From assembly GCA_902793685.1 (NCBI GenBank), contig CADBEN010000020.1, positions 1-40,720 of the forward strand: a stretch of 40,720 nt of DNA, written 5' to 3'. The position numbers and the translations under genes are program-made. Below the pieces are notes generated by a model, which saw nothing but the letters and a program-made list of their open reading frames with translations, made no database searches and was not told the origin of the DNA. The stretch is from an uncultured Lachnospiraceae bacterium (lineage in GTDB: Bacteria > Bacillota > Clostridia > Lachnospirales > Lachnospiraceae). This document shows positions 7,875-39,866 of this stretch, one piece after another (within the stretch, counting starts at the first letter, position 1; each line of letters begins with the position of its first letter).

Positions 7875-8810
7875 TTGAGAGAACTATATCCAGCGCACTA
7901 TACGCGCTTTCACTGTATCGCTTCTTCCTGCGATTTCACCTGCTGCAGAGAATGGAAGATTTATGCGGACGATGCTGTCTTCCGCAAGTGGCAGAAGAAC
8001 GGGATCCGGAAAGTCACCCGGTGGGTGGACGGGCAGCGCGTCGTCAGGCTTACAGAGGATCTGGATTGTCCCCATCTGGCGGAAGACGGGCTCTGCCGGC
8101 TCATCACTGAGTACGGAGAAGGTCTGATCCCCGGGAGCTGCCGCGCCTTTCCGAGAGAAATCAGGGAATATCCGGACCGGACAGAAAGATCCCTCATGCT
8201 GGCATGCCCCGCAGTGATCGACCTCCTTGCGGAGGGATTCTCTGTTCCCGGGAACGAAAGCCCGGAAGCGACCGGACGGCTGAGAGAGCATTGGATGCGT
8301 ATCATCCGAGAATCTGCCGCTCCGGAGGAGGCGTTTCTCCGTCTGTTCCGGGTTCCGGAAGACTACCCGGCGGTGCCGGCAGATGCGCAGAAAGAAGAGG
8401 AAGCACAGCTGTACGCAGATCTCACGGAGAATTACAGGGCAGAGGGATACTACCGGAGATTCTGGGAAGAGGAAGCGGACGTGAACCGGGGGAACATGAC
8501 TCTCTGGAGGACTCACAAAGATATCATCATGAACTGTATTCTGAATGACGTCTGGTCCGAGTGCCTGAAGCCCGGTTTTACAGAGCAGGAAATGCGGCTG
8601 AAGTTAGAGTGGACCGCACTGAAATATGCTGCGGTACGCCATTTCCTGCGGATCCGTCCTCGTAAAGGAGGGTTTCGGACCGTCAGAAACGGGATCGTCC
8701 TCATGACGCGGATCATGAGCATGGACGACGAAGAGATATTCACATGGCTTCATGAGATGTTTGACGGAACGCTCTGGGGTCCGGAGTATCCGGCTTTGCT
8801 GTTCGGGTGA
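7875..8810 (+). CDS. FliB-like cysteine-rich protein (annotated family: flagellin lysine-N-methylase)
   Basis: 311 residues from a TTG start with GGAGG 5 nt upstream. The N-terminus carries a metal-binding cysteine set: Cys14, Cys19, Cys23 and Cys24, then Cys65, Cys74, Cys89 (CRAFPR) and Cys111 (ACPAV). This matches the FliB / YkgJ-like pattern that probably binds an Fe-S cluster or zinc. FliB methylates flagellin lysines in Salmonella, but most Clostridia homologues are far from flagellar genes, and none is visible here. The C-terminal 180 residues are helical and less typical. It lies 12 bp after the glycine-riboswitch gene and is probably cotranscribed, so its level may follow glycine. Confidence 0.7.
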   Translation: MRELYPAHYTRFHCIASSCDFTCCREWKIYADDAVFRKWQKNGIRKVTRWVDGQRVVRLTEDLDCPHLAEDGLCRLITEYGEGLIPGSCRAFPREIREYPDRTERSLMLACPAVIDLLAEGFSVPGNESPEATGRLREHWMRIIRESAAPEEAFLRLFRVPEDYPAVPADAQKEEEAQLYADLTENYRAEGYYRRFWEEEADVNRGNMTLWRTHKDIIMNCILNDVWSECLKPGFTEQEMRLKLEWTALKYAAVRHFLRIRPRKGGFRTVRNGIVLMTRIMSMDDEEIFTWLHEMFDGTLWGPEYPALLFG

Positions 8811-8854: not shown

Positions 8855-10003
8855 ATGAGAATAAAAAAGATTCCGTTCGCTGCCGCGGCGGCATTGACGG
8901 TGGTCCTGCTGAGTCTGAATATGGCAGTTCCGGCTGCAGGGGCGGATGTTCATTCCGTGGATCTGACCGGCCAGATGCGGTATTTTGCGGACCCGGGGAA
9001 GAACGGGCCTGCAGAGAAATCCTTCCCCCTCTTTCTTCCGGAGGCCGGCAGCATCGCCCTCAATTACTGGTCCAATTATTTCACGGAAGAGACCCCGGAG
9101 AAAAACGTGAGCCATATCCGTGTCACCGGTGCGGACGGAAGGCTGGTCTGGAGTCAGGAACGGATCGGGAAGGGGGACCAGGTCTTCAATCTGTCTCTGG
9201 ATGCCGGCAAGTATGAGATCACGGTGGGAAGCGGCACGGCGGACGGCCGGATCAGCTTTGAAGTCTTCTACACTCCGGGAAGCGCGGCCGGCAGCTTTCA
9301 GGGAGAACTTCATGCTGCGGAGATCGCGGGCGATGCCGGCTGCAGGACCCTTTCGCTGAGCGGGGACGCCAGTCTTCGTCTGGACACGGACCTCACGGTG
9401 GAGCGGCTGGAAGCCCTGGGCGGAGAAGACCGGACACTGACGGTCACGGGACCGGGAACCCTGCGGATCCAGGCGCCCGCGCTCCGGGCTGAGAAGGTGC
9501 TTCTCAATGTCGCAGGAGGCACGGTGGTCGCGCCGGAGCTTGGCGGTTTTATACAGACAGGCGGAACAGTCCGTATTCTCGGCGGTTCTGCGGACAGCTT
9601 CCGGATCTTCGGCGGGGAACTGATCGTGGAAAGTGACGGGGACGGTCTGACCGGCCCCTTTGAGATCCACGGCGGCAATGTCCGGGTGAATGCCGCCGGC
9701 TGCGGGATCTGCTGTTCCCTGTTCGGCGGGGCGCCGGTCATCACCGGCGGAACGGCCCTGATCCGGGGAGGGCGGAGAGCAGTCCTGGTGGAACGGCTGC
9801 GGGAGGAAGGCCAGAGAAGTTCAGACAATCTCGGGTACCGTCTGGTGAGGGAAGAGCTCCCGCTCTTTATCGCAGAGAATGTCGCTGTGGAACGGCCCTC
9901 CGATGGCTGGATCCGGATCAGCGGCACAGAGTATCTGTTCCCGGAAGAGATCCGGGAGGTGGTACTGACAGGCAGGGACAGCGTGAACCCGATCAAGGAC
10001 TGA
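8855..10003 (+). CDS. Secreted beta-rich protein of unknown function
   Basis: 382 residues starting at the ATG at 8855, 6 nt after GGGAGG. A Sec signal peptide is clear: RIKK, a hydrophobic core, then PAAGA before Asp-Val, with cleavage near residue 31. Residues 32-150 form a beta-sandwich-like segment. Residues 150-320 have short repeated turns (LRIQAPALRAEKV, GGTVVAPELGGF, GGTVRILGG, GGELIVESDGDGL, GGNVRVNAAG, GGTALIRGG), the look of a right-handed beta-solenoid or the carbohydrate-binding DUF4353-type fold. Three Cys cluster in CGICC. I do not recognise a named family; extracellular polysaccharide binding is a guess. Nearby lipoprotein and glycosidase genes fit a surface role. Confidence 0.7.
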   Translation: MRIKKIPFAAAAALTVVLLSLNMAVPAAGADVHSVDLTGQMRYFADPGKNGPAEKSFPLFLPEAGSIALNYWSNYFTEETPEKNVSHIRVTGADGRLVWSQERIGKGDQVFNLSLDAGKYEITVGSGTADGRISFEVFYTPGSAAGSFQGELHAAEIAGDAGCRTLSLSGDASLRLDTDLTVERLEALGGEDRTLTVTGPGTLRIQAPALRAEKVLLNVAGGTVVAPELGGFIQTGGTVRILGGSADSFRIFGGELIVESDGDGLTGPFEIHGGNVRVNAAGCGICCSLFGGAPVITGGTALIRGGRRAVLVERLREEGQRSSDNLGYRLVREELPLFIAENVAVERPSDGWIRISGTEYLFPEEIREVVLTGRDSVNPIKD

Positions 10004-10022
10004 CGATCCATTACTCATGGCA

Positions 10023-10053
10023 GACTGAAGTCACGGATCTCGTGGCTGAAGTC
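10023..10053 (+). repeat. Short hairpin with repeated CTGAAGTC
   Basis: CTGAAGTC occurs twice (10025-10032, 10046-10053). CACG-GATCT-CGTG makes a small central hairpin, and outer GACT/AGTC can extend it. It sits in the gap between the secreted protein and the lipoprotein. It resembles the other short hairpins in this window only in size. Confidence 0.3.
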
Positions 10054-10116
10054 TTTCGATCTCTGCCCGAAAAGCAGAAACGGTACCGGATAATTTACGA
10101 AACAGGAGGAATGATC

Positions 10117-10569
10117 ATGAAAAGGAGAAAGATCTCCGGCATCACTGTTTTACTGTTTCTCTGCTGCATGCTGTGCGGCTGCGCGGCTGCGGCCGGGGGA
10201 CAGACGACCGCAGAGGAGACCCCTGTTCTGTGGCCCGAAACGGAAATGCCGGCGGCCCTTAAGTATGACCGTATGTGGATCTACAGTGCTCAGGCAGAAA
10301 CGGAAGACCCGGAGGTGATCCGGGACATCGTCGAGGCAGTCAGGAATATCCGGGTGCAGGAGAAAGAAGGCTCCCGGGCGGAGGATTACACGGACATTCT
10401 CCTGTTCACCTTCCGGGACGGACATACATACCGCCTGGAATTCGAGGCGGACAGCTGGCTTGCGGACGATAACACCTGCCTGCACGTGGAAGGACTCTCC
10501 GTCCTCCGGACTCTGCTGGACGGGCTGCTGGAAAAAGACGCGGAAAATGCGAACCCGAAAAAGGACTGA
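10117..10569 (+). CDS. Small putative lipoprotein
   Basis: 150 residues. The ATG at 10117 lies 7 nt after AGGAGG; the ATG at 10111 is too close to the ribosome site. The N-terminus has KRRK, a hydrophobic core and the lipobox-like LCGC, so lipidation of Cys22 is expected, with the mature chain anchored to the outer face of the membrane. The remainder (about 125 residues) alternates charged and hydrophobic strands (ILLFTFRDGHTYRLEFEAD), suggesting a small beta-sheet domain. No family was recognised. It follows the secreted protein and precedes the TIGR04076 gene by 46 bp, all in the same direction. Confidence 0.65.
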   Translation: MKRRKISGITVLLFLCCMLCGCAAAAGGQTTAEETPVLWPETEMPAALKYDRMWIYSAQAETEDPEVIRDIVEAVRNIRVQEKEGSRAEDYTDILLFTFRDGHTYRLEFEADSWLADDNTCLHVEGLSVLRTLLDGLLEKDAENANPKKD

Positions 10570-10615
10570 ACCGGTCCGGAGCAGCCGGGAAATGAACGTG
10601 CGGAGGAACCAGAAC

Positions 10616-10930
10616 ATGAAAAAAGTCCGGATCACAGTAAAAAAGATCGCCCGGTATGACGATCTGATGGAACAGTATGAAAATCCGATCGAGCATGCAT
10701 GTGATATGCAGCTCGGCCAGACCTTTGTCTGCAATGGCTGGAAAAAACCGGAAGGCTTCTGCGACAGCGCCTGGGATACAGTGTCTTCTTTCGTCATGAC
10801 GCTGTCTCACGGCGGAGAAAACTTCTATGACGGATGGATGAAGAATCCGAAATCTGCGATGATCTCCTGCAATGACGGTTTCCGGCCGGTGAGTTTCCTG
10901 TTGGAGACGATGGAGGAGGAAGCAGATTAA
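10616..10930 (+). CDS. TIGR04076 family protein
   Basis: 104 residues, ATG at 10616 with GGAGG 9 nt upstream. The pattern VRITVKKIARYDDL, an internal GQTFVCNGWKKPEGFCDSAW and CNDGFRPVSFLLE fits the small TIGR04076 family known from anaerobes; its function is not established. Four Cys (residues 31, 41, 51 and 87 approximately) may coordinate metal. The gene is ended by a long terminator at 10953 and is probably the last of the 8855-10930 run. Confidence 0.7.
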   Translation: MKKVRITVKKIARYDDLMEQYENPIEHACDMQLGQTFVCNGWKKPEGFCDSAWDTVSSFVMTLSHGGENFYDGWMKNPKSAMISCNDGFRPVSFLLETMEEEAD

Positions 10931-10952
10931 AAACTGTCTGAAGCTGTCGAGA

Positions 10953-11010
10953 CTGTCGCATTAAGAGATGATATCATTTCGCTCTTAGTGCGGCAGCCCT
11001 TTTCTTTTCT
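10953..11010 (+). terminator. Rho-independent terminator after TIGR04076 gene
   Basis: CTGTCGCATTAAGAG (10953-10967) pairs with CTCTTAGTGCGGCAG (10982-10996), a 15-bp stem with two T-G wobbles, followed by a CCCTTTTCTTTTCT tract. Confidence 0.85.
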
Positions 11011-11084
11011 GGCGGATTTTTCTTTCCGGGCACGTAAGAGGAGCGGAGCAGTGGATTATTCCATAGTTCCGTGATACCCTGATT

Positions 11085-13817: not shown

Positions 13818-14444
13818 TTATTTGATGAACTTTACCTGAGCGCTGATCTTTTCGATCTGCTCGTCTTTTCTCTTGTTGTACTCAACTTTCTTCTCCTCGA
13901 AGTAGTTGCGGCCCTTTGCGTCGATGGAGACGATCAGGGGACCGAACTCCTTCACGCGGCAGTTCCAGAGGGTCTCGGGCATGCCCAGGTCTCTCCATTC
14001 AGCGCGCTCAATTTCTTCCACCGCGACGGCTGCCACGACTGCGTTGCCTGCCGGGATGACCACGTGGATCGCTCCAAAGTCCTTACATGCCGCGGCGGTC
14101 TGTTCCTTCATGCCGCCCTTGCCGACGATGACGCGGACGCCGGTGATCTTTACGAACTCATACTCGAACTTTTCCATTCTCATGGATGTGGTCGGTCCGA
14201 CGGAGACCATCTCGAATTTGTCGTTCTCCAGGGGCCGGATAATGGGGCCTGCATGCAGGATCGCATTGTTCCGGACATCTACCGGGATCTCACGTCCTTC
14301 TTCCACGACACGGCGGTGCGCCACGTCGCGGCAGGTGGTCAGACTGCCTGAAAGGTAAACAATATCGCCGATCTTGATGTCTTCCAGATCTTCTGCTGAA
14401 ATCGGTGTAACCAGGATTTTCTTTCCGTCTCTGTATTCTACCAT
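13818..14444 (-). CDS. ttdB: L(+)-tartrate dehydratase, beta subunit
   Basis: 208 residues. [35 protein letters not shown] and the terminal VKFIK match E. coli TtdB closely, more than the fumarase class I beta part. With TtdA it forms the heterotetrameric Fe-S dehydratase that converts L-tartrate to oxaloacetate in the cytoplasm. Its ATG overlaps the TAA stop of ttdA by one base, so translation is coupled. A class I fumarase role cannot be fully excluded from sequence alone, because the two enzymes are homologous. Confidence 0.85.
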
Positions 14445-15343
14445 TATAATTCCACCCCCGAATGCGTTGTGATCGTGTAGTTAAGGTCCTTGTCAAAGAT
14501 GATGTGTCCGCGTCTGTGGCTCCAGCAGCCAACATTGACTGCCACGCCGATTGCGGAAGGATGACGCGCCGTGTTCTCGATGTGCACGCCCATGACAGAG
14601 TAGTTTCCGCCCATGCCCTGCGGCCCGAGGCCGATGGCGTTGATACCGTCTTCAAGAAGCTTCTCCATCTTTGCTGCACGCTCGTTCTCGTTGTGAGAAC
14701 CGATGGGGCGCATCAGCGCTTTTTTGGAGAGAAGGGCCGCAGTCTCGACGCTGGTCGCGACTCCGACGCCGACCAGAAGCGGCGGGCAGGCGTTCAGACC
14801 ATAGCTGGTCATGCGGTCCAGGACGAACTTGGTCACGCCCTCGTAGCCCTCGCCCGGCATCAGAACGGTTGCATTTCCGGGAAGGGTGCAGCCGCCGCCG
14901 GCCATGTAGGTGTAGATCTCGCACTTGTCGGAGTGGGGGACGATATCCCACCACACAGTCGGTGTTCCTTTGCCGACATTCTTTCCGGTATTGTACTCGT
15001 CAAAGGTCTCGACGGAGTTGTGGCGAAGAGGCGTCTCGAAGGTCGCCTTGATGACTGCTTCTCTGAGAAGGGCCTCCAGGTCGTCAATCAGCGGGAACCG
15101 GGTTCCGCATTTGACCCAGAACTGCAGGACGCCGGTGTCCTGACATGAGGGCCGGTTCAGCTTGACTGCAAGCTCCTGGTTCCGGAACATGGTGTCGTAG
15201 ATCACCTTTGCCATCGGGCTGTCTTCTTTGCCGCGAAGCTCTTCGAGCTTCGCAATTACATCATCCGGCAGCTTCTTGCCGGTATGGCCAACGAACTTGG
15301 CCATCATTTCGGTCATTCTCCGGACCTGTTCTTCGTGCGTCAT
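14444..15343 (-). CDS. ttdA: L(+)-tartrate dehydratase, alpha (Fe-S) subunit
   Basis: 299 residues, ATG at 15343 with GGAGG 7 nt upstream. Blocks typical of the alpha subunit are present: [69 protein letters not shown] and GCWSHRRG. Cys67, Cys186 and Cys273 are the likely ligands of the catalytic [4Fe-4S] cluster, whose free iron binds the substrate; such enzymes are quickly damaged by oxygen, which fits an anaerobe. It lies between the transporter gene (86-bp gap) and ttdB. Confidence 0.88.
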
Positions 15344-15429
15344 AATTTATCCTCCATATTATTTTTGATAAACAGTTGCGTTATATTTCAGAATCGGAGC
15401 CTGTACATTCTTCACTGCCGGACTTCCGG

Positions 15430-16701
15430 TCACGGATAGAAGGGGAACAGGATGGGAAGCAGCACCATGCAGATCACAAAGGAGATCAGGATCAGCGGGA
15501 GACCAGCCTTTACGTAGTCGGTGAAGCGGTAGCCGCCGAGACCGACGACCATGGTGTTTGCCGGCATGCCGATGGGCGTTGCATAAGCGCAGGAACATGC
15601 GATGACAGTGGCGATGATCATGGACCGCGGATCTGCGCCCAGGCTCGTTGCCAGAGAAGTAGCAATCGGGACCATCAGCGCCGTAGTGGCGGTGTTGGAC
15701 ATGAAGTTCGTCAGGGCGCAGCCGACGATGAAGATCACCAGAAGAAGGATCATCGGGTTCGGGCTGGAACCGAGGGCGCCTACGATGGTGTCGGCGATCA
15801 GTGTGCCGGCGCCGGTGGAATCCAGTGCGCTTGCCAGCGCCAGGGAGCCGCCGAACAGCAGGGCGACCTTCAGGTCGATGGACTTCAGTGCCTCATTTTC
15901 GGTGACGACTCCGGTCAGGACCAGGAAACATGCAGCGACGCAGGCGGTGACCTGAAGCTTGATCCCGATCTGACTCTCGAAAATCATAGCCAGGATGCAG
16001 ACGATCAGGACGATCAGGGACACATACTGTTTCCAGACGGGAATATCGTCAAAGCTTTTCTGCTTCTCAACTGCATCCATTGTTCTTCCGGTGCCGTCCG
16101 GGAGGAATTTGTATCCGACCAGTGCGTAGAAGAGGATGCCTGCGATCAGCATGGGGACACCTACCGGTGCATACATGAAGAAGCTGGTCGGCTCGCCCAT
16201 CTCCTGCAGAGCGTTCACGCCCATCAGGTTTCCGGGAGCGCCGATGATCGAAAGGTTTCCGCCGAGTGCTGCTGCAAAGACCAGAGGCATGAGAAGACGG
16301 CTTCTGGAGTATCCGGACTCGTCCGCGATGCCGCAGACCACCGGGATCAGGACTGCGGCGGTGCCGGTGTTGGAAAGGAATCCGGACATGACACCCACGA
16401 TGACCATGATGGCGACGATCAGCATCCGTTCGCTCTTCGCGAATTTCGTGACGATTCCGCCGATGCGGTTCGCCATGCCGGTCTCGAACAGGGCCTGACC
16501 GACAACGAACATGCCGACGCAGAGGATGACGTTGGAATTGACATAGCCTGCAAATGTTGTTTTGACGTCAAGAACGCCTGTCAGGTTCAGGCCCAGTGCG
16601 ACGATGGTCGCCGTCAGGCCGAGCGGGATCTTTTCCAGCACAAAACTGATGACTGCAAACGCGAGAAAAATCAATGTGATGGTAGTTGGTGACAAGTTCA
16701 T
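15430..16701 (-). CDS. SLC13/DASS-type anion permease, probable tartrate or dicarboxylate transporter
   Basis: 423 residues, about 11-12 transmembrane helices, ATG at 16701 behind AGGGGG. The two family repeats are visible, each ending in an SNT hairpin: MSGFLSNTGTAAVLIPV near residue 105 and LTNFMSNTATTALMVPI near residue 340. These Ser-Asn-Thr loops bind sodium and the carboxylate substrate in DASS proteins. Being first in the operon with ttdA and ttdB, it most likely imports L-tartrate, or exchanges it for succinate. A strong promoter and a LysR box lie upstream. Confidence 0.85.
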   Translation of the reverse strand: MNLSPTTITLIFLAFAVISFVLEKIPLGLTATIVALGLNLTGVLDVKTTFAGYVNSNVILCVGMFVVGQALFETGMANRIGGIVTKFAKSERMLIVAIMVIVGVMSGFLSNTGTAAVLIPVVCGIADESGYSRSRLLMPLVFAAALGGNLSIIGAPGNLMGVNALQEMGEPTSFFMYAPVGVPMLIAGILFYALVGYKFLPDGTGRTMDAVEKQKSFDDIPVWKQYVSLIVLIVCILAMIFESQIGIKLQVTACVAACFLVLTGVVTENEALKSIDLKVALLFGGSLALASALDSTGAGTLIADTIVGALGSSPNPMILLLVIFIVGCALTNFMSNTATTALMVPIATSLATSLGADPRSMIIATVIACSCAYATPIGMPANTMVVGLGGYRFTDYVKAGLPLILISFVICMVLLPILFPFYP

Positions 16702-29714: not shown

Positions 29715-29845
29715 CGCCGGAGCATATTCGAAACGCCTGCAAGAAACAGAAAAAGAAAACTGAATCCGGTTCGACATCCCCTGACGCCGAAACTCACACT
29801 TGAGGCGAAAGACAAGATGGAGCGGCTTCCTTGGAATGTTTACGG

Positions 29846-29882
29846 GACCGCTGTACCCTTGTCCGGGGTACAGCGGTCTTTT
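29846..29882 (+). terminator. Terminator or attenuator directly upstream of hydF
   Basis: GACCGCTGTACCC (29846-29858) and GGGTACAGCGGTC (29866-29878) form a perfect 13-bp stem followed by TTTT. The hydF start codon is only 24 bp further on, so reading into hydF must begin after, or pass through, this hairpin. Confidence 0.8.
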
Positions 29883-29905
29883 CTATTGCTGAAAAAGGAG
29901 GAAAC

Positions 29906-31114
29906 ATGAGTCTGAATGAAACACCGTCCGGAGAACGGACACACATCGGGTTTTTCGGCGTGCGGAACGCCGGGAAATCCAGCCTGGTCAACGCGGTGAC
30001 CGGCCAGGACCTGGCTGTGGTGTCCGACGTGAAGGGCACCACCACGGACCCCGTAAAGAAGGCGATGGAGCTTTTGCCTCTGGGCCCCGTGGTCATCATT
30101 GACACTCCGGGCTTTGACGACGCGGGAGCGCTCGGCCGGGAGCGTGTGAAGAAAACGAAGGAGATCCTGAATACCTGTGATATTGCGGTGCTGGTGGCCG
30201 ATGCCGGCAAGGGGCTTACAGATACGGACCGGGAGCTGCTCGTTTTGATCAAGGAGAGGAAGATCCCCTGCCTTATCGCATGGAACAAGACAGATCTCTC
30301 CGGGACAAAACCTGCGCCGGAAGGAGCTGCGCAGGTCAGCAGTCTGACGGGGGCGGGTATCGATGCCCTGAAGGAACGGCTGGCGCGCATGATCCCGGAA
30401 AAGAAGGAGCGGAAGCTGGCGGGAGACCTGGTCTCTGCCGGCGACCTCTGCGTCCTGGTCTGTCCCATGGATGAGTCCGCCCCCAAGGGCCGGCTGATCC
30501 TGCCCCAGCAGCAGACCATCCGGGATCTGATGGACCGGGGAGCGGTGCCGGTGGTCTTCCGGGACACGGAACTGGAGATCGTCCTGAAGAAACCGGGGAT
30601 CGCCCCCGCGCTGGTGATCACGGACAGCCAGGCTTTCCGGACGGTCAGCGACCTGGTGCCGGATGAGATCCCGCTGACATCCTTTTCCATCCTGATGGCC
30701 CGGTACAAGGGCTTTCTGGAGACAGCTGTGAAGGGAATCAGCACACTGAAGGATCTTAAAGACGGGGACCGGATCCTGATGGCAGAGGGCTGCACCCATC
30801 ACCGTCAGTGCAACGACATCGGCACGGTGAAGATCCCGCGCTGGCTGAAGTCACATACCGGAAAAGAGCTGGTTTTTGAGACCTGCTCAGGCAATGGGTT
30901 CCCCGAGGACCTTACCCCGTACCGTCTGGTGATCCACTGCGGCGGATGCATGCTGACAGAAAATGCCGTGCTCGCCAGAATGCGGCAGGCGGAAAAACAG
31001 GAGGTGCCGTTCACGAACTACGGGATCGCCATTGCCTTCATGACGGGTGCCCTGGAGCGGAGTCTCCGCCTTTTCCCTGCGCTGCACAGCCTTCTTCCGG
31101 AGGGTGCGGGATGA
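29906..31114 (+). CDS. hydF: [FeFe] hydrogenase maturation GTPase HydF
   Basis: 402 residues, ATG at 29906 behind AGGAGG. The GTPase domain has GVRNAGKS (18-25), TTTDP (46-50), DTPG (66-69) and NKTD near 125. The C-terminal cluster domain has Cys296-x-His298 and Cys345-x2-Cys348, the ligands of its [4Fe-4S] cluster. HydF is the scaffold on which the H-cluster 2Fe subcluster is assembled before delivery to the hydrogenase. Its stop overlaps the hydE start by 4 bp. Confidence 0.95.
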   Translation: MSLNETPSGERTHIGFFGVRNAGKSSLVNAVTGQDLAVVSDVKGTTTDPVKKAMELLPLGPVVIIDTPGFDDAGALGRERVKKTKEILNTCDIAVLVADAGKGLTDTDRELLVLIKERKIPCLIAWNKTDLSGTKPAPEGAAQVSSLTGAGIDALKERLARMIPEKKERKLAGDLVSAGDLCVLVCPMDESAPKGRLILPQQQTIRDLMDRGAVPVVFRDTELEIVLKKPGIAPALVITDSQAFRTVSDLVPDEIPLTSFSILMARYKGFLETAVKGISTLKDLKDGDRILMAEGCTHHRQCNDIGTVKIPRWLKSHTGKELVFETCSGNGFPEDLTPYRLVIHCGGCMLTENAVLARMRQAEKQEVPFTNYGIAIAFMTGALERSLRLFPALHSLLPEGAG

Positions 31115-32190
31115 ACGGGCGCGAAAGGGAGCTGATCGCTGTTCTGGAGAGAGAGCACAGGCTTTCCGAGGCGGAATACGCGGAACTCATCCGAGGCAGG
31201 GACGAGGAGGCGGCCGCCCTGCTGGCGGAACGGGCATCGGAACTGCGCAGGTCCGTATTCGGGGATACAGTCTATCTCCGCGGCCTCATCGAGATCAGCA
31301 GCATCTGCAGGAACAACTGCCTGTACTGCGGGATCCGCAGGGACAACCGTCAGGCGGAACGGTACCGCCTGACGAAGGAGGAGATTCTTTCCTGCGCGGA
31401 CGAGGGATACACGCTGGGGTTCCGCACCTTTGTGCTGCAGGGAGGCGAAGATCTATTCTTCACAGACGAGATTCTCTGCGGGATCGTTTCCGCCCTGAAA
31501 GAACGCCATCCGGACTGCGCCGTGACCCTGTCCATGGGGGAGCGGCGCCGGGAAAGCTATCAGGCACTGTTTGATGCCGGGGCGGACCGGTATCTTCTGC
31601 GGCATGAGACCGCGGACGATGCTCATTACGCAAAGCTTCATCCGGAGGAAATGTCCTTTGAGAACCGGATGCGCTGTCTGCGGGAACTGAAGGACATCGG
31701 ATACCAGGTGGGCTGCGGTTTTATGGTGGGTTCCCCTTTCCAGACGGCAGAGACCCTGGCGAAGGATCTGAAATTTATTGAGACCTTCCGTCCGGAGATG
31801 TGCGGCATCGGCCCCTTCATCCCGCACCGGAACACGCCCTTCCGGGATGAGACGCCGGGCACCCTGGAGCTCACGCTCTTCCTGCTTTCGGTGATCCGCC
31901 TGATCCTGCCGGAGGTACTTCTGCCGGCCACAACGGCTCTGGGCACCATCCATCCCAGGGGCCGGGAACTGGGGATCCTGGCAGGGGCCAACGTGGTCAT
32001 GCCGAATCTGTCGCCGGTGGTCGTCCGGAAAAAATATGAGCTGTATGACAACAAGATCTGCACCGGGGAGGAATCGGCCCAGTGCGTGGACTGTCTCGCG
32101 GCAAGGCTGGATGCGATCGGCTGTCATCCGGCCGTGGACCGGGGTGACGCCCCGGGATTTGCAGCCTTACGGCGCGAAGCAGCAACCTGA
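31111..32190 (+). CDS. hydE: [FeFe] hydrogenase maturation radical SAM protein HydE
   Basis: 359 residues, with ATGA overlap with hydF and GGAGGG upstream. The radical SAM cluster motif is Cys66-x3-Cys70-x2-Cys73 (CRNNCLYC). GEDLFF, SMGERRRESYQ, LLRHETAD and GIGPFIPHRNTPF are HydE landmarks. With HydG and HydF it builds the dithiolate-bridged diiron unit; HydE acts on the organometallic product of HydG. Size is typical. Confidence 0.95.
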   Translation: MNGRERELIAVLEREHRLSEAEYAELIRGRDEEAAALLAERASELRRSVFGDTVYLRGLIEISSICRNNCLYCGIRRDNRQAERYRLTKEEILSCADEGYTLGFRTFVLQGGEDLFFTDEILCGIVSALKERHPDCAVTLSMGERRRESYQALFDAGADRYLLRHETADDAHYAKLHPEEMSFENRMRCLRELKDIGYQVGCGFMVGSPFQTAETLAKDLKFIETFRPEMCGIGPFIPHRNTPFRDETPGTLELTLFLLSVIRLILPEVLLPATTALGTIHPRGRELGILAGANVVMPNLSPVVVRKKYELYDNKICTGEESAQCVDCLAARLDAIGCHPAVDRGDAPGFAALRREAAT

Positions 32191-32310
32191 GACCGAATTG
32201 GCGCGGAGGAAAGACCTGGGACGGAAGCCGCAGGCATCCACGCGCAAATTATCAGAAAGAATGAAATGGTCCGAAAGGATCAATGATTAATAGAAAAGAG
32301 GTAAATAATC

Positions 32311-33759
32311 ATGGCAAATTATGATCCCAGATCCCTGAAGGCAGAGGAATTCATCAATGATGAGGAGATCCGTGCAACTCTTGCCTATGCGGAGGAGAAC
32401 AAGAACAATGAAGAACTGATCGATCAGATCCTGGAGAAGGCACGGCCGGTGAAAAACGGGAACGGCTGTACCTGCGCCGGCCTCACACACCGGGAGGCTT
32501 CCGTGCTTCTGGCCTGCGAAAACCCGGAAAAGATCAAACGGATGTATGAGATCGCAGAGGAGATCAAGCTGGCCTTCTACGGCAATCGTATTGTCCTCTT
32601 TGCCCCGCTGTATCTGTCCAACTACTGTGTCAACGGATGTCTTTACTGTCCGTATCACCTGAAGAACAGGCACATCGCCCGGAAGAAGCTGACCCAGGAG
32701 GAAGTCCGGGCAGAGGTCATCGCTCTGCAGGACATGGGCCACAAGCGCCTGGCCATCGAGGCGGGCGAGGATCCGGTGCACAATCCTATTGAATACATCC
32801 TGGACTGCATCCATACCATCTACAGCGTCCATCACAAAAACGGCGATATCCGCCGCGTGAACGTGAATATCGCCGCCACCACCGTGGAGAACTACCGGAA
32901 GCTGAAGGAAGCCGGCATCGGCACCTACATCCTGTTCCAGGAGACCTACCACAAGGAAAGTTATCTGAAGCTGCACCCCACGGGCCCCAAGCATGACTAC
33001 GACTATCACACGGAAGCCATGGACCGGGCCATGGAAGGCGGCATCGACGACGTGGGCCTTGGCGTACTGTTCGGCCTGGAAATGTACAAGTATGAGTTCG
33101 CGGGCCTGATCATGCATGCGGAGCACCTGGAGGCAGTGCACGGCGTGGGCCCGCACACCATCAGCGTCCCGCGGGTAAAACGGGCGGACGATATCGACCC
33201 GGATATGTTCGACAACGGCATCGACGACGAGACCTTCACAAAGATCGCGGCCTGCATCCGTCTGGCAGTGCCCTACACCGGCATGATCGTCTCCACACGG
33301 GAATCCGAGGAGGTCCGGAAGAGACTTCTGCAGGTGGGCATTTCCCAGGTCAGCGGCGCTTCCCGCACCTCAGTGGGCGGCTATACGGAAGAGGAGCGGC
33401 CCCATGACACCGAGCAGTTTGACGTGTCAGACCAGCGGACTCTGGATGAGGTGGTGCACTGGCTCATGCAGACCGGACATATCCCTTCCTTCTGCACCGC
33501 CTGCTACCGGGAAGGCCGGACCGGCGACCGGTTCATGAGCCTTTGCAAGAACGGGCAGATCCTGAACTGCTGCCATCCCAATGCCCTGATGACTCTGGCG
33601 GAGTATCTGGAAGACTATGCTTCCCCGGAGACGAAGGAGACCGGTTACCGGATGATCGAAGAAGAGCTGAAGCGGATCCCGAAGGACAAGGTCCGGGAGA
33701 TCGCAGAGCAGAATATCCGGGATATCCGTTCCTCCAACCGGCGGGATTTCCGGTTCTGA
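32311..33759 (+). CDS. hydG: [FeFe] hydrogenase maturation radical SAM tyrosine lyase HydG
   Basis: 482 residues, ATG at 32311 behind AGAGG. Cys106-x3-Cys110-x2-Cys113 (CVNGCLYC) binds the radical SAM cluster, and Cys395-x2-Cys398-x22-Cys421 near the C-terminus binds the auxiliary cluster with the dangler iron. HydG splits tyrosine to give CO and cyanide for the H-cluster. EAGEDPVHNP, FQETYHKESY and SGASRTSVGGY are diagnostic. The 120 bp between hydE and hydG hold no clear element. Confidence 0.96.
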   Translation: MANYDPRSLKAEEFINDEEIRATLAYAEENKNNEELIDQILEKARPVKNGNGCTCAGLTHREASVLLACENPEKIKRMYEIAEEIKLAFYGNRIVLFAPLYLSNYCVNGCLYCPYHLKNRHIARKKLTQEEVRAEVIALQDMGHKRLAIEAGEDPVHNPIEYILDCIHTIYSVHHKNGDIRRVNVNIAATTVENYRKLKEAGIGTYILFQETYHKESYLKLHPTGPKHDYDYHTEAMDRAMEGGIDDVGLGVLFGLEMYKYEFAGLIMHAEHLEAVHGVGPHTISVPRVKRADDIDPDMFDNGIDDETFTKIAACIRLAVPYTGMIVSTRESEEVRKRLLQVGISQVSGASRTSVGGYTEEERPHDTEQFDVSDQRTLDEVVHWLMQTGHIPSFCTACYREGRTGDRFMSLCKNGQILNCCHPNALMTLAEYLEDYASPETKETGYRMIEEELKRIPKDKVREIAEQNIRDIRSSNRRDFRF

Positions 33760-33945: not shown

Positions 33946-34947
33946 TCAGGAATTGACGGAAAAATTGCGGGTCACGGTCCGGGCATAAGTCCGGAATATA
34001 GCCTGGGTGTCCCGGATGAAATCCTGGAGAAAGACCGGCGTGGTGAGATCCGAGCGGAACACCAGAGACGTGACGTTCGGAGGGAGGTTATTCCGGACCG
34101 GAAAGGTGTAAAAACGATCTCCGCCGTTTTCTTCTGACGGGGCTTTCTGCTGTCCGTGCTGAAATTCCTTCGCGTGCAGATAGAGCGTGACCGGAGACAG
34201 CAGGCCCACGCCAACCCCCTTTTTTGCGAATTTATAGATGAGGTTCTGCTGCTCGCATTCCAGCACATACTGGGGGCTGATGTAATGGGACAGGAACTGG
34301 TCCAGCACCTCCCGCATCCGGTTGCCCTTGCGGAGCGTGATCAGCGGAAGATGCATGATCTTCAGGAGATCCGCGCCGCCTGAAAAAGAATCCAGCACTT
34401 CCTGCCAGTTGTCCGGAAAGTATCTTTTCAGAAGGCCTTCCGTAAAACAGCACTGCAGATATTCCTCCGCAAGCTGGATGCGGTGCTGGTTCAGGCTGTC
34501 CGGGACGTTGATCGCGATATAGACGTCGATCTTCCCGGCCTGCAGCAGCTCGTCCAGCTTCTGGCTGTTGCCGTTTACGAGCTCCATGGAGATGTTCGGG
34601 TGGGACGGGGCGAAGCGATCCCAGATCATGGGGAAAAAGACGTTGCTTCTCAGGCGGGAGATGCCCAGGCGGAGCGTTGCCCGGGCATTTTCAGTGATAT
34701 CGGAGAAGGCAGCCCGCATGGATGCCTCCGACTGGAGGATCTGCCTGCCGAAGAAGATCATCTTCTGTCCGGCAGGCGTCAGCCGGAACACAGGCTTCCG
34801 GTAGAAAAACTCTACATTATATTCATCTTCCAGACGCTTGATATGGCCCGACAGTGCCTGCTGGCTGATGTTCAGGCGTTCCGCCGCCCGTGTCACGTTC
34901 ATCTCTTCGGCGACGATCAGAAAGTATTCGATGCTCTTCAGGTTCAT
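33946..34947 (-). CDS. LysR-family regulator of the adjacent catabolic cluster
   Basis: 333 residues, ATG at 34947 with AGGAGG upstream. The N-terminal HTH reads YFLIVAEEMNVTRAAERL and SQQALSGHIKRLEDE, typical of LysR. The effector domain (residues 90-310) has the usual alternating alpha/beta pattern. The protein is about 30 residues longer than average, with an extra C-terminal segment. It is divergent from the aldolase operon, and a dyad of LysR type lies in the shared gap and is repeated before the GltS-like gene, so it probably controls both units. The inducer is unknown. Confidence 0.87.
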   Translation of the reverse strand: MNLKSIEYFLIVAEEMNVTRAAERLNISQQALSGHIKRLEDEYNVEFFYRKPVFRLTPAGQKMIFFGRQILQSEASMRAAFSDITENARATLRLGISRLRSNVFFPMIWDRFAPSHPNISMELVNGNSQKLDELLQAGKIDVYIAINVPDSLNQHRIQLAEEYLQCCFTEGLLKRYFPDNWQEVLDSFSGGADLLKIMHLPLITLRKGNRMREVLDQFLSHYISPQYVLECEQQNLIYKFAKKGVGVGLLSPVTLYLHAKEFQHGQQKAPSEENGGDRFYTFPVRNNLPPNVTSLVFRSDLTTPVFLQDFIRDTQAIFRTYARTVTRNFSVNS

Positions 34948-35035
34948 AGGTCCTCCTGCGCCAGATGGTTCCGCCGGCCCATATGTCTGCCAGTTTCTCT
35001 TCTCCTTCATCGTAGCAAAGCCGACAGACAGAATC

Positions 35036-35108
35036 AACAATATTTTTGTTGTTTAAAAGTAAAAATAATGCTGTTAGACATTGTCATAAACGAGGCTTAA
35101 AGTATAAA
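35036..35108 (+). promoter_or_regulatory. LysR-type operator and promoter P1 (aldolase operon)
   Basis: AACAA-N8-TTGTT (35036-35053) is a dyad of the size bound by LysR dimers. CTGTTAGACATTGTC (35071-35085) contains GACA-T-TGTC and leads into the promoter TTGTCA (35081-35086), 16 bp, TATAAA (35103-35108). The dyad centre is about 70 bp before the predicted start. 38 of the first 50 bases match P2 at 37193 without gaps. Confidence 0.65.
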
Positions 35109-35178
35109 CAAATGAATCATATCACTTTTAAAGCCTTTTCATCATTCATCTCAGCAGACAGAAAGAGAGGAGAAAGCA

Positions 35179-36180
35179 ATGAGCGTTACGTTAATGGACT
35201 GCACCCTGAGAGACGGAGCAAATGTGGTCGGCAAGGGCTTTGACGCCGAGATCACCGATATGGTACTGGACGGCCTGACGGCGGCGGGCGTGCCGATCAT
35301 CGAGTTCGGCAATGCCGGCGGCATCGGCGCCTACGAGGTGGCGGGCTTCACCCAGGCGGAAACGGATGATACCTACCTTGAGATCGTGCAGAAATATCTG
35401 AACCGCGGCTCCAAAATCGGCATGTTCCTGAACGCGAAGCGCTATCGCAGCAACAACGTCCTGAAGGCGAAGGAAAACGGCCTTGCCTTCCTCCGCGTGG
35501 GCGCGGACGCGGGCGATGCCGATATCTCCGTCCAGCCGGTGAAGGAGATCAAGGAAGCCGGCCTGATGGCGTTCTACTCTCTGATGAAGGCTTACCTCCT
35601 GACCCCGGACGAGCTGGCTGAGGAGGCGAAGAAGCTGGAGGCGGCAGGCCTCGACGAGATCACCATCATGGATTCCGCCGGCACCATGACTCCGGACCAG
35701 GTCGTTGAGTACACGAAGAAGCTGAAGGCTGCCGTGAAGATCCCGGTGGCGTTCCACTGCCACAACAACCTGGGCCTTTCCGCGGCGAATGCCATCGCGG
35801 CCTATGAGAACGGCGCGGACATCCTGGACTGCGGTCTGATGGGCATGGCCCGCAGCGCCGGCAACCTTGCGACGGAGATTTGCGTGGCCATCATGCAGCG
35901 CTACGGCGAGATGAAGGACATCGACCTCTTCGGCATGCTGGACTTCATCGACACCCGCCTGCAGCCGGCCATGGCGAAGCACAACTATCACAACCCGGTG
36001 ACGCCGTTGGATCTGACCCTCGGCATTTCCGGCTGCCACTCCAGCTTCCTGAAGACCTTCAAGGCGGTCGCGGCGGAGGAGAAGGTGAACCTCTTCAAGC
36101 TGATCTGCGAGGTCTCCGCCATCAACCAGAAGAACCCGAACGAGGCCCTGATCCGCGAAGTGGCTGCGAAGCTGAAGTAA
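35179..36180 (+). CDS. DmpG-like DRE-TIM aldolase (4-hydroxy-2-oxoacid aldolase family)
   Basis: 333 residues, ATG at 35179 after AGAGGAG. The TIM-barrel metal-dependent lyase motif LMDCTLRDG gives Arg11 and Asp12, and AFHCHNNLGL gives His193 and His195, the divalent-metal ligands. MDSAGTM near 164-170 is the mobile-loop region. Relatives such as 4-hydroxy-2-oxovalerate aldolase cut a 4-hydroxy-2-oxo acid to pyruvate and an aldehyde; HMG-CoA lyase and isopropylmalate synthase are more distant. The C-terminal communication domain of DmpG is partly retained, but no partner acylating aldehyde dehydrogenase is nearby. The substrate is unknown. Confidence 0.8.
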   Translation: MSVTLMDCTLRDGANVVGKGFDAEITDMVLDGLTAAGVPIIEFGNAGGIGAYEVAGFTQAETDDTYLEIVQKYLNRGSKIGMFLNAKRYRSNNVLKAKENGLAFLRVGADAGDADISVQPVKEIKEAGLMAFYSLMKAYLLTPDELAEEAKKLEAAGLDEITIMDSAGTMTPDQVVEYTKKLKAAVKIPVAFHCHNNLGLSAANAIAAYENGADILDCGLMGMARSAGNLATEICVAIMQRYGEMKDIDLFGMLDFIDTRLQPAMAKHNYHNPVTPLDLTLGISGCHSSFLKTFKAVAAEEKVNLFKLICEVSAINQKNPNEALIREVAAKLK

Positions 36181-36227
36181 GAATAAAGAAAACCCGGGAA
36201 AACACAGACAAAAAGGAGGCCGGAAAG

Positions 36228-37190
36228 ATGCTGAAAGTCGTTCTCGCGGGGACCTATCCCGCACATACCTATGAAAAGCTTAAGAAACTGCTGCCGGCGG
36301 ATCAGTTCGATTTTGTCGCGGTGGACAGCCAGGAAGCGTATGACGCCATGACGGATGCGGAGATCATGATCCTCCGGATCTTCAAGGCGCCGAAGGAAGT
36401 GATCGAACGCAATCCGAATCTGAAGATGATCCTTCGCTGGGGGGCAGGCTTTGACTCTGTGGACATCGAGGCTGCGGGCGCGAAGGGGATCCTGGTGACC
36501 AACACTCCCGGCGCCAACGCGAACGCGGTTTCGGAACTTGCGGTGACGCTGATGCTGACCGTGTACCGGAAGATCCTGGAGCACACGGACAGCCTGAGAA
36601 GCGGCGAGTGGAGCAAGAACACCTACCTGAATTCCAGTTTCAGTCTTTACGGGAAGCTGGTGGGGATCGTCGGCGGCGGGAACATCGGCCGCCAGGTCGC
36701 CCTGAAGGTGCAGGCCTTCGGCGCGGAGACCCAGTACTATGACGCGTTCCGTCTTCCCCCGGAGATGGAAGAGAAATTCAACCTGAAGTACGTTTCCCTG
36801 GAAGAGCTGCTTCAGACCTCAGACATCGTCACACTGCACGTGCCGCTGTTGGATTCCACCCGTCACATGATCGGGGCGGAGCAGATCAAGGCCATGAAGG
36901 ACGGAGCGGTGATCATCAACACGGCCCGGGGCGGACTGATCGACGATAAGGCGCTTTGTGCCGCGGTGAAGGCCGGGAAGCTGCTGGGCGCGGGCCTGGA
37001 CGGCGTGGAAGAAGAGCCGCTTCCGGCGGGACATGAGCTGCTCACGACGCCGGGCATCGTGGTGAGCCCCCATGTGGGAGGCGGCACGGCGGACATCGGC
37101 GACGTCATCATGCCGATGCTGGCGAAGGACATCTGCGACTTTGCGGAGACCGGGGACTGCGCCCATGTGGTCAACCGGAAGTATCTGTAA
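36228..37190 (+). CDS. D-isomer specific 2-hydroxyacid dehydrogenase
   Basis: 320 residues, ATG at 36228, 8 nt after AAAGGAGG. The dinucleotide-binding loop is GGGNIG (149-154). The catalytic set is Arg234 (NTARGG), the glutamate in VEEEP (261-263) and His282 (SPHVGG). The family reduces 2-oxoacids to D-2-hydroxyacids or works in reverse; candidates are phosphoglycerate, glyoxylate/hydroxypyruvate or substrate-specific enzymes. There is no ACT domain, unlike serine-pathway SerA. It lies 47 bp after the aldolase gene. A role in oxidising the 2-hydroxy group of the aldolase precursor, or in reducing the aldehyde-acid product, is inferred. Confidence 0.85.
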   Translation: MLKVVLAGTYPAHTYEKLKKLLPADQFDFVAVDSQEAYDAMTDAEIMILRIFKAPKEVIERNPNLKMILRWGAGFDSVDIEAAGAKGILVTNTPGANANAVSELAVTLMLTVYRKILEHTDSLRSGEWSKNTYLNSSFSLYGKLVGIVGGGNIGRQVALKVQAFGAETQYYDAFRLPPEMEEKFNLKYVSLEELLQTSDIVTLHVPLLDSTRHMIGAEQIKAMKDGAVIINTARGGLIDDKALCAAVKAGKLLGAGLDGVEEEPLPAGHELLTTPGIVVSPHVGGGTADIGDVIMPMLAKDICDFAETGDCAHVVNRKYL

Positions 37191-37192
37191 AT

Positions 37193-37263
37193 AACAATAT
37201 ATAAGTTGTTGAAAATAAAAATATATACTGTTTAACATTGTCGAATCGAGTTGCTAGTATGAG
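37193..37263 (+). promoter_or_regulatory. LysR-type operator and promoter P2 (transporter-amidohydrolase unit)
   Basis: AACAA-N8-TTGTT (37193-37210) and CTGTTTAACATTGTC (37228-37242) sit at exactly the same spacing (35 bp) as in P1. AGTATGAG (37256-37263) is the counterpart of the P1 -10 region, though the -35/-10 spacing is shorter here. The block starts directly after the dehydrogenase stop codon. Confidence 0.6.
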
Positions 37264-37305
37264 GACACAGGAAGAAAGCAATAAAGAACAGAGGGGAGAG
37301 GCATT

Positions 37306-38721
37306 ATGAGTGAAATTCAGGTTGTGTTATATGATCTGGGGTATCTGAGCATCCTGCTGCTGATGGGTGTATTCCTCAGAAAGAATATCAAGGGTATCCA
37401 GAATCTTTATATCCCGGCATCCCTGTTGGGCGGCTTCTGCGGACTGATCCTCGGACCGCAGGTGCTGGGCTCGGTTTCTCCGGTCTGTTTCCCGGTCACG
37501 TCCACCATCGGAAAGTGGTCGGGCGTCCTGGTCAACATCGTCCTCGGCGTTTCCTTCTTCGGGACCAAGCCCAGCGGCAAGTTCGGCCGGACCGCGCTTT
37601 CAGCGGTGACGGTCGGCGGAATCGCCCATCAGATGCAGGTCGTCTGCGGCCTGATCTGCGCAATGGTCCTGATGACGGTCTACACCGATCTGCCGATCGC
37701 CTTCGGTCTGACTCCGGTGTTCGGTTTCCACGGCGGACACGGCACTGCGAACTCCGCCGGCGCAGCGCTTGAGCAGGCCGGCTGGGTCGACGGAAGCACC
37801 GTCTGCAATACCATGGCGACGGCTGGTCTTCTCTCCGGTATCATCATCGGAATGATCATCATCAACATCGGCGTCCGCCGCGGCTACGCGAAGCTGGTCT
37901 CCAAGCCGGCAGCGGTCCCGCAGTCCGTTAAGGAAGGCATCGTTCCGGAGAACGAGCGCACCTCCATCGGTAAGGGCGTCACCTACAGCGACGCGCTGGA
38001 TCCGCTGGCACTGCAGCTTGCGTTCATCGGTGTGATCCTGATTATGGCAAAGGAGCTTTCCGCCGGACTGATCGCGCTTCATCCGATCCTCAAGAACGTC
38101 CCGATGTTCGCCTGCGCGATGATCTGCGGCGCGGTACTGAACTTCATCATGAAGAAGCTGGGCCTCAGTCACTACATCGACCGTCCGACCATCAACCGCA
38201 TTGCAGGCGTGGCACTGGACTTCCTGGTCTGCTCCGCCATCGCGACCCTTTCCGTGAAGGTCTTCGCGGCATATCTGGTCCCGATGCTGGTCACCATCGT
38301 GGTCGTCATCCTGGCGAACCTGTTCGCCAACTTCTACTTCGGATGGAAGCTGTTCGACGACGATTGGTTTGAGCGCACCCTCGGAAGCTATGGTCTGGAG
38401 AGCGGCGTTCTTGCCACCGGACTGATGCTCCTCAGAGTGGTGGACCCGAAGTTTGAGACCACCGGCCAGGAATCCGCGGCAGCTTCGGCGGCACTGTGCT
38501 ATCCCTGGTCCCTGCCTTACATCATGTTCATGCCGGCACTTGCCATGAGCGGTGCTTCCCCGATGCTTCTCCTCGGGATCAGCGTTGCGCTGCTGGTGGT
38601 CTTCCTGGTGGTCGCGAGAGTGTTCTTCTGGCACAGCGACAGAAAGTTCAGTGATATCCTCAGCGGCACCAGCACCGCTCCGGTCCAGAATCCGGAGGCG
38701 CTCGGAGAACTTTCCAAATGA
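37306..38721 (+). CDS. GltS-like sodium/carboxylate symporter (ESS family)
   Basis: 471 residues, ATG at 37306 behind GGGGAGAGG. About ten to twelve transmembrane helices are arranged as two inverted halves. The signature GFHGGHGTANSAG near 140-155 matches the re-entrant loop GGHG of GltS glutamate transporters, and ESAAASAA in the second half (about 386) takes the opposing position. It is longer than GltS (about 400). The family imports glutamate or similar dicarboxylates with sodium. Here a different anionic substrate, handled by the neighbouring amidohydrolase, is likely. ATGA overlap with the next gene. Confidence 0.8.
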   Translation: MSEIQVVLYDLGYLSILLLMGVFLRKNIKGIQNLYIPASLLGGFCGLILGPQVLGSVSPVCFPVTSTIGKWSGVLVNIVLGVSFFGTKPSGKFGRTALSAVTVGGIAHQMQVVCGLICAMVLMTVYTDLPIAFGLTPVFGFHGGHGTANSAGAALEQAGWVDGSTVCNTMATAGLLSGIIIGMIIINIGVRRGYAKLVSKPAAVPQSVKEGIVPENERTSIGKGVTYSDALDPLALQLAFIGVILIMAKELSAGLIALHPILKNVPMFACAMICGAVLNFIMKKLGLSHYIDRPTINRIAGVALDFLVCSAIATLSVKVFAAYLVPMLVTIVVVILANLFANFYFGWKLFDDDWFERTLGSYGLESGVLATGLMLLRVVDPKFETTGQESAAASAALCYPWSLPYIMFMPALAMSGASPMLLLGISVALLVVFLVVARVFFWHSDRKFSDILSGTSTAPVQNPEALGELSK

Positions 38722-39866
38722 TGGATCTGATCTTAAAGAATGGTTTTCTGTTTGACCCGGCAGCCGGACTTGACGGGAAACAGGGCGATCTTGCCGTCAC
38801 TGACGGCAGGATCACCGCTGTCGGGAATGTTTCCGGCGAAGCGGCGAAGGTGATCGACGTCAGCGGTCTGACCGTGGTGCCGGGGCTCATCGACTTCCAC
38901 GCGCATTTCTACAGCGGCGGGACGAATACTTCCCTGGAATACAGCAGATACGCGGCCGGCGGTGTGACCGGCGCCTGCGACGCCGGAAGCGCCGGCGATT
39001 CCAATATCGAATCGTTTATCTCTGCTCTGTCTGAGCAGGAAAGAAGGAACGCGAAGCTGTACATCAACGCTGCTTCAGAAGGACTCAGCTGTCTGGGAGA
39101 TCATCCGGAGATCATAAACCCGAAGTACTTCAATGTCAGGAAGATCTGCAGACTGGCTGAAAGATACCCGGACCTGATCCGAGGGATCAAGATCCGGATC
39201 AGCCGGGAGATCACCGAGATCAGCGGAACCACCAGCATGGACGCGCTCCGCGGCGCGGTTGAGGTCGGTGAAGCCGCCGGGCTTCCGGTTTCCGTCCATA
39301 TGCCGAATTTCGTCGGAGAGCTGAAAGAATTGATCGACATCCTGCGGCCGGGGGATATCTTCTGCCATGTGTTTACGCCGCAGAGAGGGATTCTTACCGA
39401 GGACGGAAGCGTTTCGAAGGAAATGTTCCGCGCAAGAGAGAAGGGAATCATCCTGGAATCGGCCTGCGGCAAAGGGCATTTCGGACATGACTGCGCCCGC
39501 AGGGCGATCGCGGCGGGACTTTTCCCGGATATCATTTCCGGCGATTTTACCAGGAACACGTATTTCTGTGAACCGGCGGTCTCGCTGACCTATCTGATGT
39601 CCCGGTTCCTGGCCCTGGGTATGACACTGGAGCAGGTAATGCGCTGCGTCACCACGAAGCCTGCGGAAATACTGGGGATCAGCGATGAGGTCGGAAGCCT
39701 GAAGGAAGGGCTTCGGGCAAACATCACGGTCCTCGACAGAAGAAGCGGAGAGATCCGGTTTACGGATGTGAAAGGCGATACCGTGACCGGGCAGGAGCTT
39801 CTGGTGCCGGAGATCACCGTCATTGAGGGCGAGATCGCGTACCGGAATTTCAACACGATCCGCTGA
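38718..39866 (+). CDS. Amidohydrolase / deacetylase family metal hydrolase
   Basis: 382 residues starting at the ATG overlapping the GltS-like stop. The dihydroorotase-like binuclear site is complete: His61 and His63 (DFHAHF), Lys158 (GIKIRIS, the carboxylated lysine), His194 (SVHMP), His217 (CHVF) and Asp276 (SGDF). His254 in GKGHFG is a likely substrate-binding residue. The closest named group is the EF0837/AHA_3915-type amidohydrolases, which include deacetylases acting on N-acetyl-D-amino acids or esters; their true substrates are mostly unknown. It may remove an acyl group from, or open a ring in, the substrate brought in by the symporter. Translational coupling with the transporter supports this. 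Confidence 0.85.
   Translation: MMDLILKNGFLFDPAAGLDGKQGDLAVTDGRITAVGNVSGEAAKVIDVSGLTVVPGLIDFHAHFYSGGTNTSLEYSRYAAGGVTGACDAGSAGDSNIESFISALSEQERRNAKLYINAASEGLSCLGDHPEIINPKYFNVRKICRLAERYPDLIRGIKIRISREITEISGTTSMDALRGAVEVGEAAGLPVSVHMPNFVGELKELIDILRPGDIFCHVFTPQRGILTEDGSVSKEMFRAREKGIILESACGKGHFGHDCARRAIAAGLFPDIISGDFTRNTYFCEPAVSLTYLMSRFLALGMTLEQVMRCVTTKPAEILGISDEVGSLKEGLRANITVLDRRSGEIRFTDVKGDTVTGQELLVPEITVIEGEIAYRNFNTIR

Follow-up and report, generated by a model that had tools for sequence, protein, structure and literature searches.

The 40,720-nucleotide stretch of DNA analysed here (the window) is a contig of an uncultured Lachnospiraceae bacterium (CADBEN010000020.1, assembly GCA_902793685.1) and carries five genes between positions 33946 and 39866 that encode a LysR-family regulator, a DmpG-related pyruvate aldolase, a D-2-hydroxyacid dehydrogenase, a GltS-like carrier and an amidohydrolase. 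All five were borne out by translation and family scans (Table 1). Intergenic spacings along the operon are 234, 47 and 115 bases, followed by a four-base overlap between carrier and amidohydrolase, which reads ATGA in the sequence (38718-38721) and confirms the gene coupling claimed in a first-pass annotation of this DNA.

Table 1. Genes and putative regulatory elements of the locus (positions in the window)
Feature	Position	Strand	Basis
LysR-family regulator	33946-34944	-	PF00126 and PF03466; divergent from aldolase
Two-part putative LysR operator before aldolase	35037-35084	+	48-bp pattern match
DmpG-related class II pyruvate aldolase, distinct subfamily (N15, F83, K137, R225, H287)	35179-36180	+	HMGL-like
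D-2-hydroxyacid dehydrogenase, phosphoglycerate dehydrogenase/glyoxylate-reductase-like	36228-37190	+	PF02826, PF00389
Second copy of two-part element, 5' of carrier and hydrolase	37194-37241	+	
GltS-like (ESS-type) secondary carrier	37306-38721	+	Likeness to PF03616 protein of same genome
COG3964-type amidohydrolase (metal-dependent hydrolase; COG number presumed)	38718-39866	+	PRK12394, PRK09237, EF_0837, PDB matches

We compared the surroundings of related aldolases across genomes. A scan of the species-genome collection found 188 aldolase candidates and listed the best 80; 71 of these were used (L022-L092), L093-L101 (25-27% identity) were left out, and with the window, L010 and L018 this made 74 loci. 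Neighbour types were assigned by blastp (E 1e-6) from one seed per type, the counts covering seeded types only, and Pfam and NCBIfam scans of neighbours were limited to seeds or single representatives. In 66 of the 74 loci the stretch from -6 to +7 kb around the aldolase includes a D-2-hydroxyacid dehydrogenase gene; nine such genes occur in the 2.54-Mb draft genome itself, and its two aldolase loci account for three of these. Same-strand adjacency of aldolase and dehydrogenase was scored by script in 49/74, and the window, L028 and L075 also read as adjacent, the script having chosen a longer open reading frame (ORF) starting inside the aldolase. The window's four-gene order recurs in Clostridium symbiosum ATCC 14940 (L087; identities 79/67/76/66%, with 76% for the carrier), flanked by eno- and rnr-like genes named by eye. 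The order is amidohydrolase-GltS-aldolase-dehydrogenase in L036 and amidohydrolase-aldolase-dehydrogenase in L041, the aldolases of L039 and L041 are each immediately preceded by a COG3964-type gene, and close hydrolases were found in the same cluster in C. transplantifaecale (63%) and a Eubacteriales metagenome-assembled genome (MAG; 60%). The neighbourhood counts, together with the shared element described below, rule out chance neighbours: the genes form a real conserved unit. Neighbourhood conservation had been named beforehand as the test that could refute a common pathway, and with genes conserved together behind a shared promoter element the idea survived it. The accompanying statement that no known pathway has this gene order was upheld in part, since we found no description of the gene set or pathway in the open-access literature searched, but the order is not unique, as C. 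symbiosum demonstrates.

Around the aldolase the partners vary. A carrier of one of five sought types was present in 43/74 loci (Tct 19, GltS 12, TRAP-M 8, MFS 5, DASS 4), types known mostly for organic acids, and the hydrolase types were HD (14), COG3964 (7), DUF6282 (4) and MBL (2). DUF6282 proteins, from a family without a function given in Pfam, occupy the hydrolase place at L034, L053, L024, L018 and L136, and small HD-domain proteins of ~190-225 aa lie near the aldolase in their 14 loci (e.g., L044 9326-9961, L030 4902-5579). Of eight further aldolase loci, seven lie on contigs that, judged by their length, the collection scan had already yielded. The one new locus, G961, outside the 74, served as a single held-out check and had the aldolase, DUF6282 and the dehydrogenase, with partial TRAP-M and weak RpiR matches. 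The minimum number of label changes on a quick tree (22 of 65 inner branches starred) was 17 for carriers and 10 for hydrolases, counts inflated by the treatment of mixed labels as states. The import and hydrolysis parts are best read as exchangeable between loci. Occurrence is also patchy: the aldolase was found in 2/398 phylum-drawn genomes (E 1e-60) and 8/397 family-drawn genomes (E 1e-100), own genome included in both, and the hydrolase is absent from all six same-genus genomes (E 1e-60). Such a scattered distribution suggests horizontal transfer. Looked for in 98 relatives (E 1e-60) and in 391 genomes of the class (E 1e-65), the hydrolase yielded only homologues of 35-37% identity, in three other genomes.

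The two elements in the locus share a 48-bp pattern composed of ACAA-N8-TTGT and CTGTT-N4-ATTGT, in this order, with a spacer of 18 or, in some relatives, 19 between them. The strict pattern has three matches in the draft genome, namely before the window aldolase, before the window carrier and before an aldolase copy on contig C8 (L010), and a reversed-pattern control gave none there. Across the 74 neighbourhoods (1.19 Mb) there are nine strict matches, seven before an aldolase, one before the window carrier and the ninth in a Synergistaceae MAG (L024), where it precedes a DASS carrier paired with DUF6282. A looser pattern gave 11 matches, which add to the nine a one-letter variant before a GltS gene (L040) and a site in L030 that fits no expected promoter; the looser two-part pattern found seven loci, with 0.01 predicted by block shuffles of the 74 upstream regions. 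Relatives of the LysR protein (59-73%) occur at five aldolase loci bearing the same element, which is present in all six loci with a LysR at least 58% identical to that of the window (window included) and in no other locus having a match to the window LysR. With LysR domains in the regulator and a conserved dyad upstream of its predicted target genes, this distribution makes it very likely that carrier and hydrolase belong to the regulon of the aldolase and dehydrogenase, and very likely that an unrelated carrier-hydrolase pair takes their place in the putative regulon of another organism.

A second aldolase locus of the same genome, on C8, comprises genes for RpiR, an RraA-type aldolase, a dehydrogenase, an aldolase 96% identical to that of the window, a dehydrogenase, TctCBA and an amidohydrolase (36% identical); the element is present and the mapped stretch shows no LysR. 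A search at E 1e-10 found two amidohydrolases of this type in the genome, both within its two aldolase clusters. Directly upstream of the C8 aldolase copy (L010 6621-8511) the RraA-type gene is followed by the second D-2-hydroxyacid dehydrogenase gene. The pairing of an RraA-type HMG/CHA aldolase with a D-2-hydroxyacid dehydrogenase is found within the aldolase's cluster on C8 and in L027 and L028, but the RraA-type enzyme is unrelated to the window aldolase and has no gene in 33946-39866.

The window aldolase retains R11, D12, H193 and H195 of the DmpG type within an HMGL-like TIM barrel, the Arg and the Asp/His/His metal site that serve catalysis in 4-hydroxy-2-oxovalerate aldolases. In contrast, Asn15 and His287 stand where DmpG has His21 and Tyr291. 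N15, F83, K137, R225 and H287 are invariant in 68/68 aligned aldolases, of which K137, R225 and F83 are invariant positions new relative to DmpG; the alignment leaves out fragments below 300 aa (L057, L088, L089) and L049, L090 and L091, which have no aldolase-cluster member on the map. The aldolase frame of L057 (Clostridia bacterium UC5.1-2E3) is broken into two pieces at about 9956-11031. Relative to BphI, with a one-residue shift in numbering, L87 is replaced by F83 and L89 by N85, the latter in 43/68. The first-pass annotation had held that all active-site residues of the three enzymes are present, which is correct for the hydrolase and the dehydrogenase but not for the aldolase, whose whole family replaces H21 and Y291 of DmpG. 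Scores also fell below the curated NCBIfam cut-offs (TIGR03217, 200.8 of 286; NF006049, 223.1 of 229). The model of the DmpF-type partner (an acylating aldehyde dehydrogenase), TIGR03215, had no match in the draft genome, a result with a weak control, given that 0/14 control genomes passed its cut-off. DmpG and BphI work with such a partner; the window aldolase adjoins a D-2-hydroxyacid dehydrogenase. A canonical DmpG-DmpF meta-cleavage operon was rejected because the aldolase residues differ and, within the limits of that control, no DmpF was found.

The signature also bears on the substrate. K137 and R225 led us to infer a substrate with an anionic tail, and the earlier idea that the acid may be 4-hydroxy-2-oxoglutarate-like fits these new Lys and Arg residues. 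The engineered L87W/Y290F variant of BphI is described as (4R)-specific (PMC3962088); by analogy, the natural Phe83 and His287, which occupy the places of Leu87 and Tyr290, make selectivity for (4R) substrates possible. The homologue might instead act as a decarboxylase or condensing enzyme, for example on a substituted oxaloacetate, since its fold is common to isopropylmalate and homocitrate synthases and to carboxyltransferases, and since RraA-like genes occur in 7/74 loci, one of which, when scanned, scored below cut-off on the 4-carboxy-4-hydroxy-2-oxoadipate aldolase/oxaloacetate decarboxylase model. We consider this improbable, as the nearest relatives by sequence and by fold along the barrel are 4-hydroxy-2-oxovalerate aldolases.

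Both Pfam models of the dehydrogenase scored over cut-off, and its Arg-Glu-His triad is formed by R234 and H282 (75/75 aligned sequences, window included) and E263 (71/75). The best PDB matches are 1wwk and 6bii. Glyoxylate reductases are among its PDB relatives, which would suit an arrangement in which the same enzymes act with the aldolase first and the dehydrogenase last, reducing an acidic aldehyde or its tautomer (glyoxylate to glycolate, or hydroxypyruvate to D-glycerate) and regenerating NAD+. Ldh_2-type and 2-hydroxy-3-oxopropionate (tartronate semialdehyde) reductase-like genes, the latter with a model score below cut-off, accompany the aldolase in 9/74 loci and are joined in L062 and L063 by a glycerate-kinase-type gene, which likewise fits this order. 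Yet a D-2-hydroxyacid dehydrogenase is also present in 9/9 such loci, so this reduction alone does not account for its role, and the best NCBIfam model of the window enzyme is phosphoglycerate dehydrogenase (below cut-off); we therefore regard the aldolase-first order as rather unlikely. The same nine loci resemble the GarL-GarR-GarK aldarate route in combining a pyruvate aldolase with a reductase-like gene, and two of them with a kinase-type gene, but that route uses another aldolase family and the window operon has neither the reductase-like nor the kinase-type gene; no dehydratase was recognised in the cluster maps, where no search aimed at dehydratases was made. In L065, L080, L081 and L084 a PL22-like (oligogalacturonate lyase) gene stands beside the Ldh_2-type and reductase-like pair, hinting at a uronate or pectin branch.

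For the carrier no credible Pfam or NCBIfam model was found: up to E 1 there were just two chance-level Pfam matches and no PF03616. Another protein encoded in the genome, to which it has 29% identity, does match PF03616 (Glt_symporter). Its structural model is weak (pLDDT 67, 4 sequences), with a TM score to CitS of up to 0.51, and the top Foldseek rows were NhaP-type antiporters with lower TM than CitS; the likeness to CitS is only suggestive. The amidohydrolase, which we take to be of the COG3964 type, remained below all NCBIfam cut-offs (PRK12394, 311.8 of 442; PRK09237, 296.7 of 371; EF_0837, 195.8 of 432) and matched 8je0, 8wzy, 2ogj and 2ics in the PDB. H61, H63, K158, H194, H217 and D276 are invariant in 7/7 COG3964 hydrolases of the aldolase loci (window included) and correspond to the HxH, Lys, His, His and Asp metal ligands of COG3964 amidohydrolases, enzymes reported to hydrolyse acylated (R)-2-hydroxy acids. 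With 2ogj, 2ics and 8je0, a set in which we presume Atu3266 and EF0837 to be represented, the window hydrolase has near full-length similarity and these ligands in common, but it differs in its scores and in its gene context. Atu3266 reportedly cleaves acetyl-(R)-mandelate; in the open-access literature searched, no paper mentioning DUF6282, Atu3266 or 8JE0 turned up.

The gene set, the shared element, the conservation of the unit and the aldolase signature are the part of our account that is read from sequence. On this basis we propose, with a probability of roughly 55%, a catabolic regulon under LysR control, made up of two transcription units, for import, hydrolysis, oxidation and cleavage to pyruvate and a polar aldehyde. 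The GltS-like carrier would import an anionic compound, the amidohydrolase would open an ester, lactone or amide to give a free 2-hydroxy acid, the dehydrogenase would oxidise this to a 4-hydroxy-2-oxo acid, and the aldolase would cleave the latter. The aldehyde would probably bear a carboxylate, glyoxylate or tartronate semialdehyde being the nearest guesses, and the dehydrogenase might alternatively take the last step by reducing it. Substrate, order of steps and stereochemistry are what we infer for the pathway. The outline given earlier (uptake, hydrolysis, redox change, cleavage) survives in its general form, its interpretation being partly supported by conservation and the shared element.

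Several observations weigh against this proposal. Just 27/74 loci have a hydrolase belonging to any of the four sought types, and only 7/74 a COG3964-type one, which makes the window's version one variant; the dehydrogenase is missing from 8/74 (some contigs are short); and several loci instead carry genes that look, by eye, like ABC permeases, an argument for other substrates at those loci. The C. symbiosum locus, identical in order, has no LysR match or element in its mapped stretch. The pattern was derived from sites that it later matched, its independent part being only the absence elsewhere, and the second half alone, with up to two mismatches, gave two window matches, a number reached by 8/100 shuffles and not significant (with one mismatch there were seven genome matches, three of them known sites). 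The aldolase fold family also performs synthase and carboxyltransferase chemistry, and in the aldolase model the C-terminal region is placed unlike that of DmpG, the active-site position of H287 being predicted from sequence. Finally, since carrier and hydrolase are under a separate promoter, the step they serve may be another one. The separate upstream elements, and an aldolase-dehydrogenase pair that often lacks a recognised hydrolase, would also accord with two independent units under one regulator, the carrier and hydrolase salvaging one compound, the aldolase and dehydrogenase another, and the inducer alone in common. This appears distinctly unlikely to us given the four uninterrupted genes in C. 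symbiosum, the COG3964-type gene directly 5' of the L039 and L041 aldolases, and the L024 locus, where the same element is followed by a different carrier-hydrolase pair.

Elsewhere in the window, genes for L(+)-tartrate dehydratase, TtdA and TtdB (13818-15343, minus strand), both scored over curated cut-offs and adjoin a divergent 438-aa ORF (15376-16692) that matched no Pfam or NCBIfam model at the thresholds applied. The dehydratase suggests that the host handles hydroxy di-acids and is no proof for this operon. The HydF, HydE and HydG genes upstream of the locus (29831-33759, plus strand; [FeFe]-hydrogenase maturation set, all over cut-offs) are part of another function. At 7875-8810 (plus strand) the first 119 residues match the flagellin lysine-N-methylase FliB over cut-off.

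More tentatively, the single regulon proposed here may exemplify an undescribed catabolic system of gut and rumen anaerobes, in which a (4R)-selective pyruvate aldolase subfamily would be specific for 4-hydroxy-2-oxo di- or tricarboxylates, a D-2-hydroxyacid dehydrogenase would be its partner in place of DmpF, and unrelated importers (Tct, ESS, DASS, TRAP, MFS) and hydrolases (COG3964, DUF6282, MBL, HD) would be swapped in to serve different conjugates of one plant-acid kind. The aldolase subfamily can be named by a distinct invariant active-site signature and is linked to the predicted regulon through a DNA element present in several genomes. The proposal offers a testable route by which an acid used by gut and rumen anaerobes would be converted to pyruvate, and through it DUF6282 gains a likely context.

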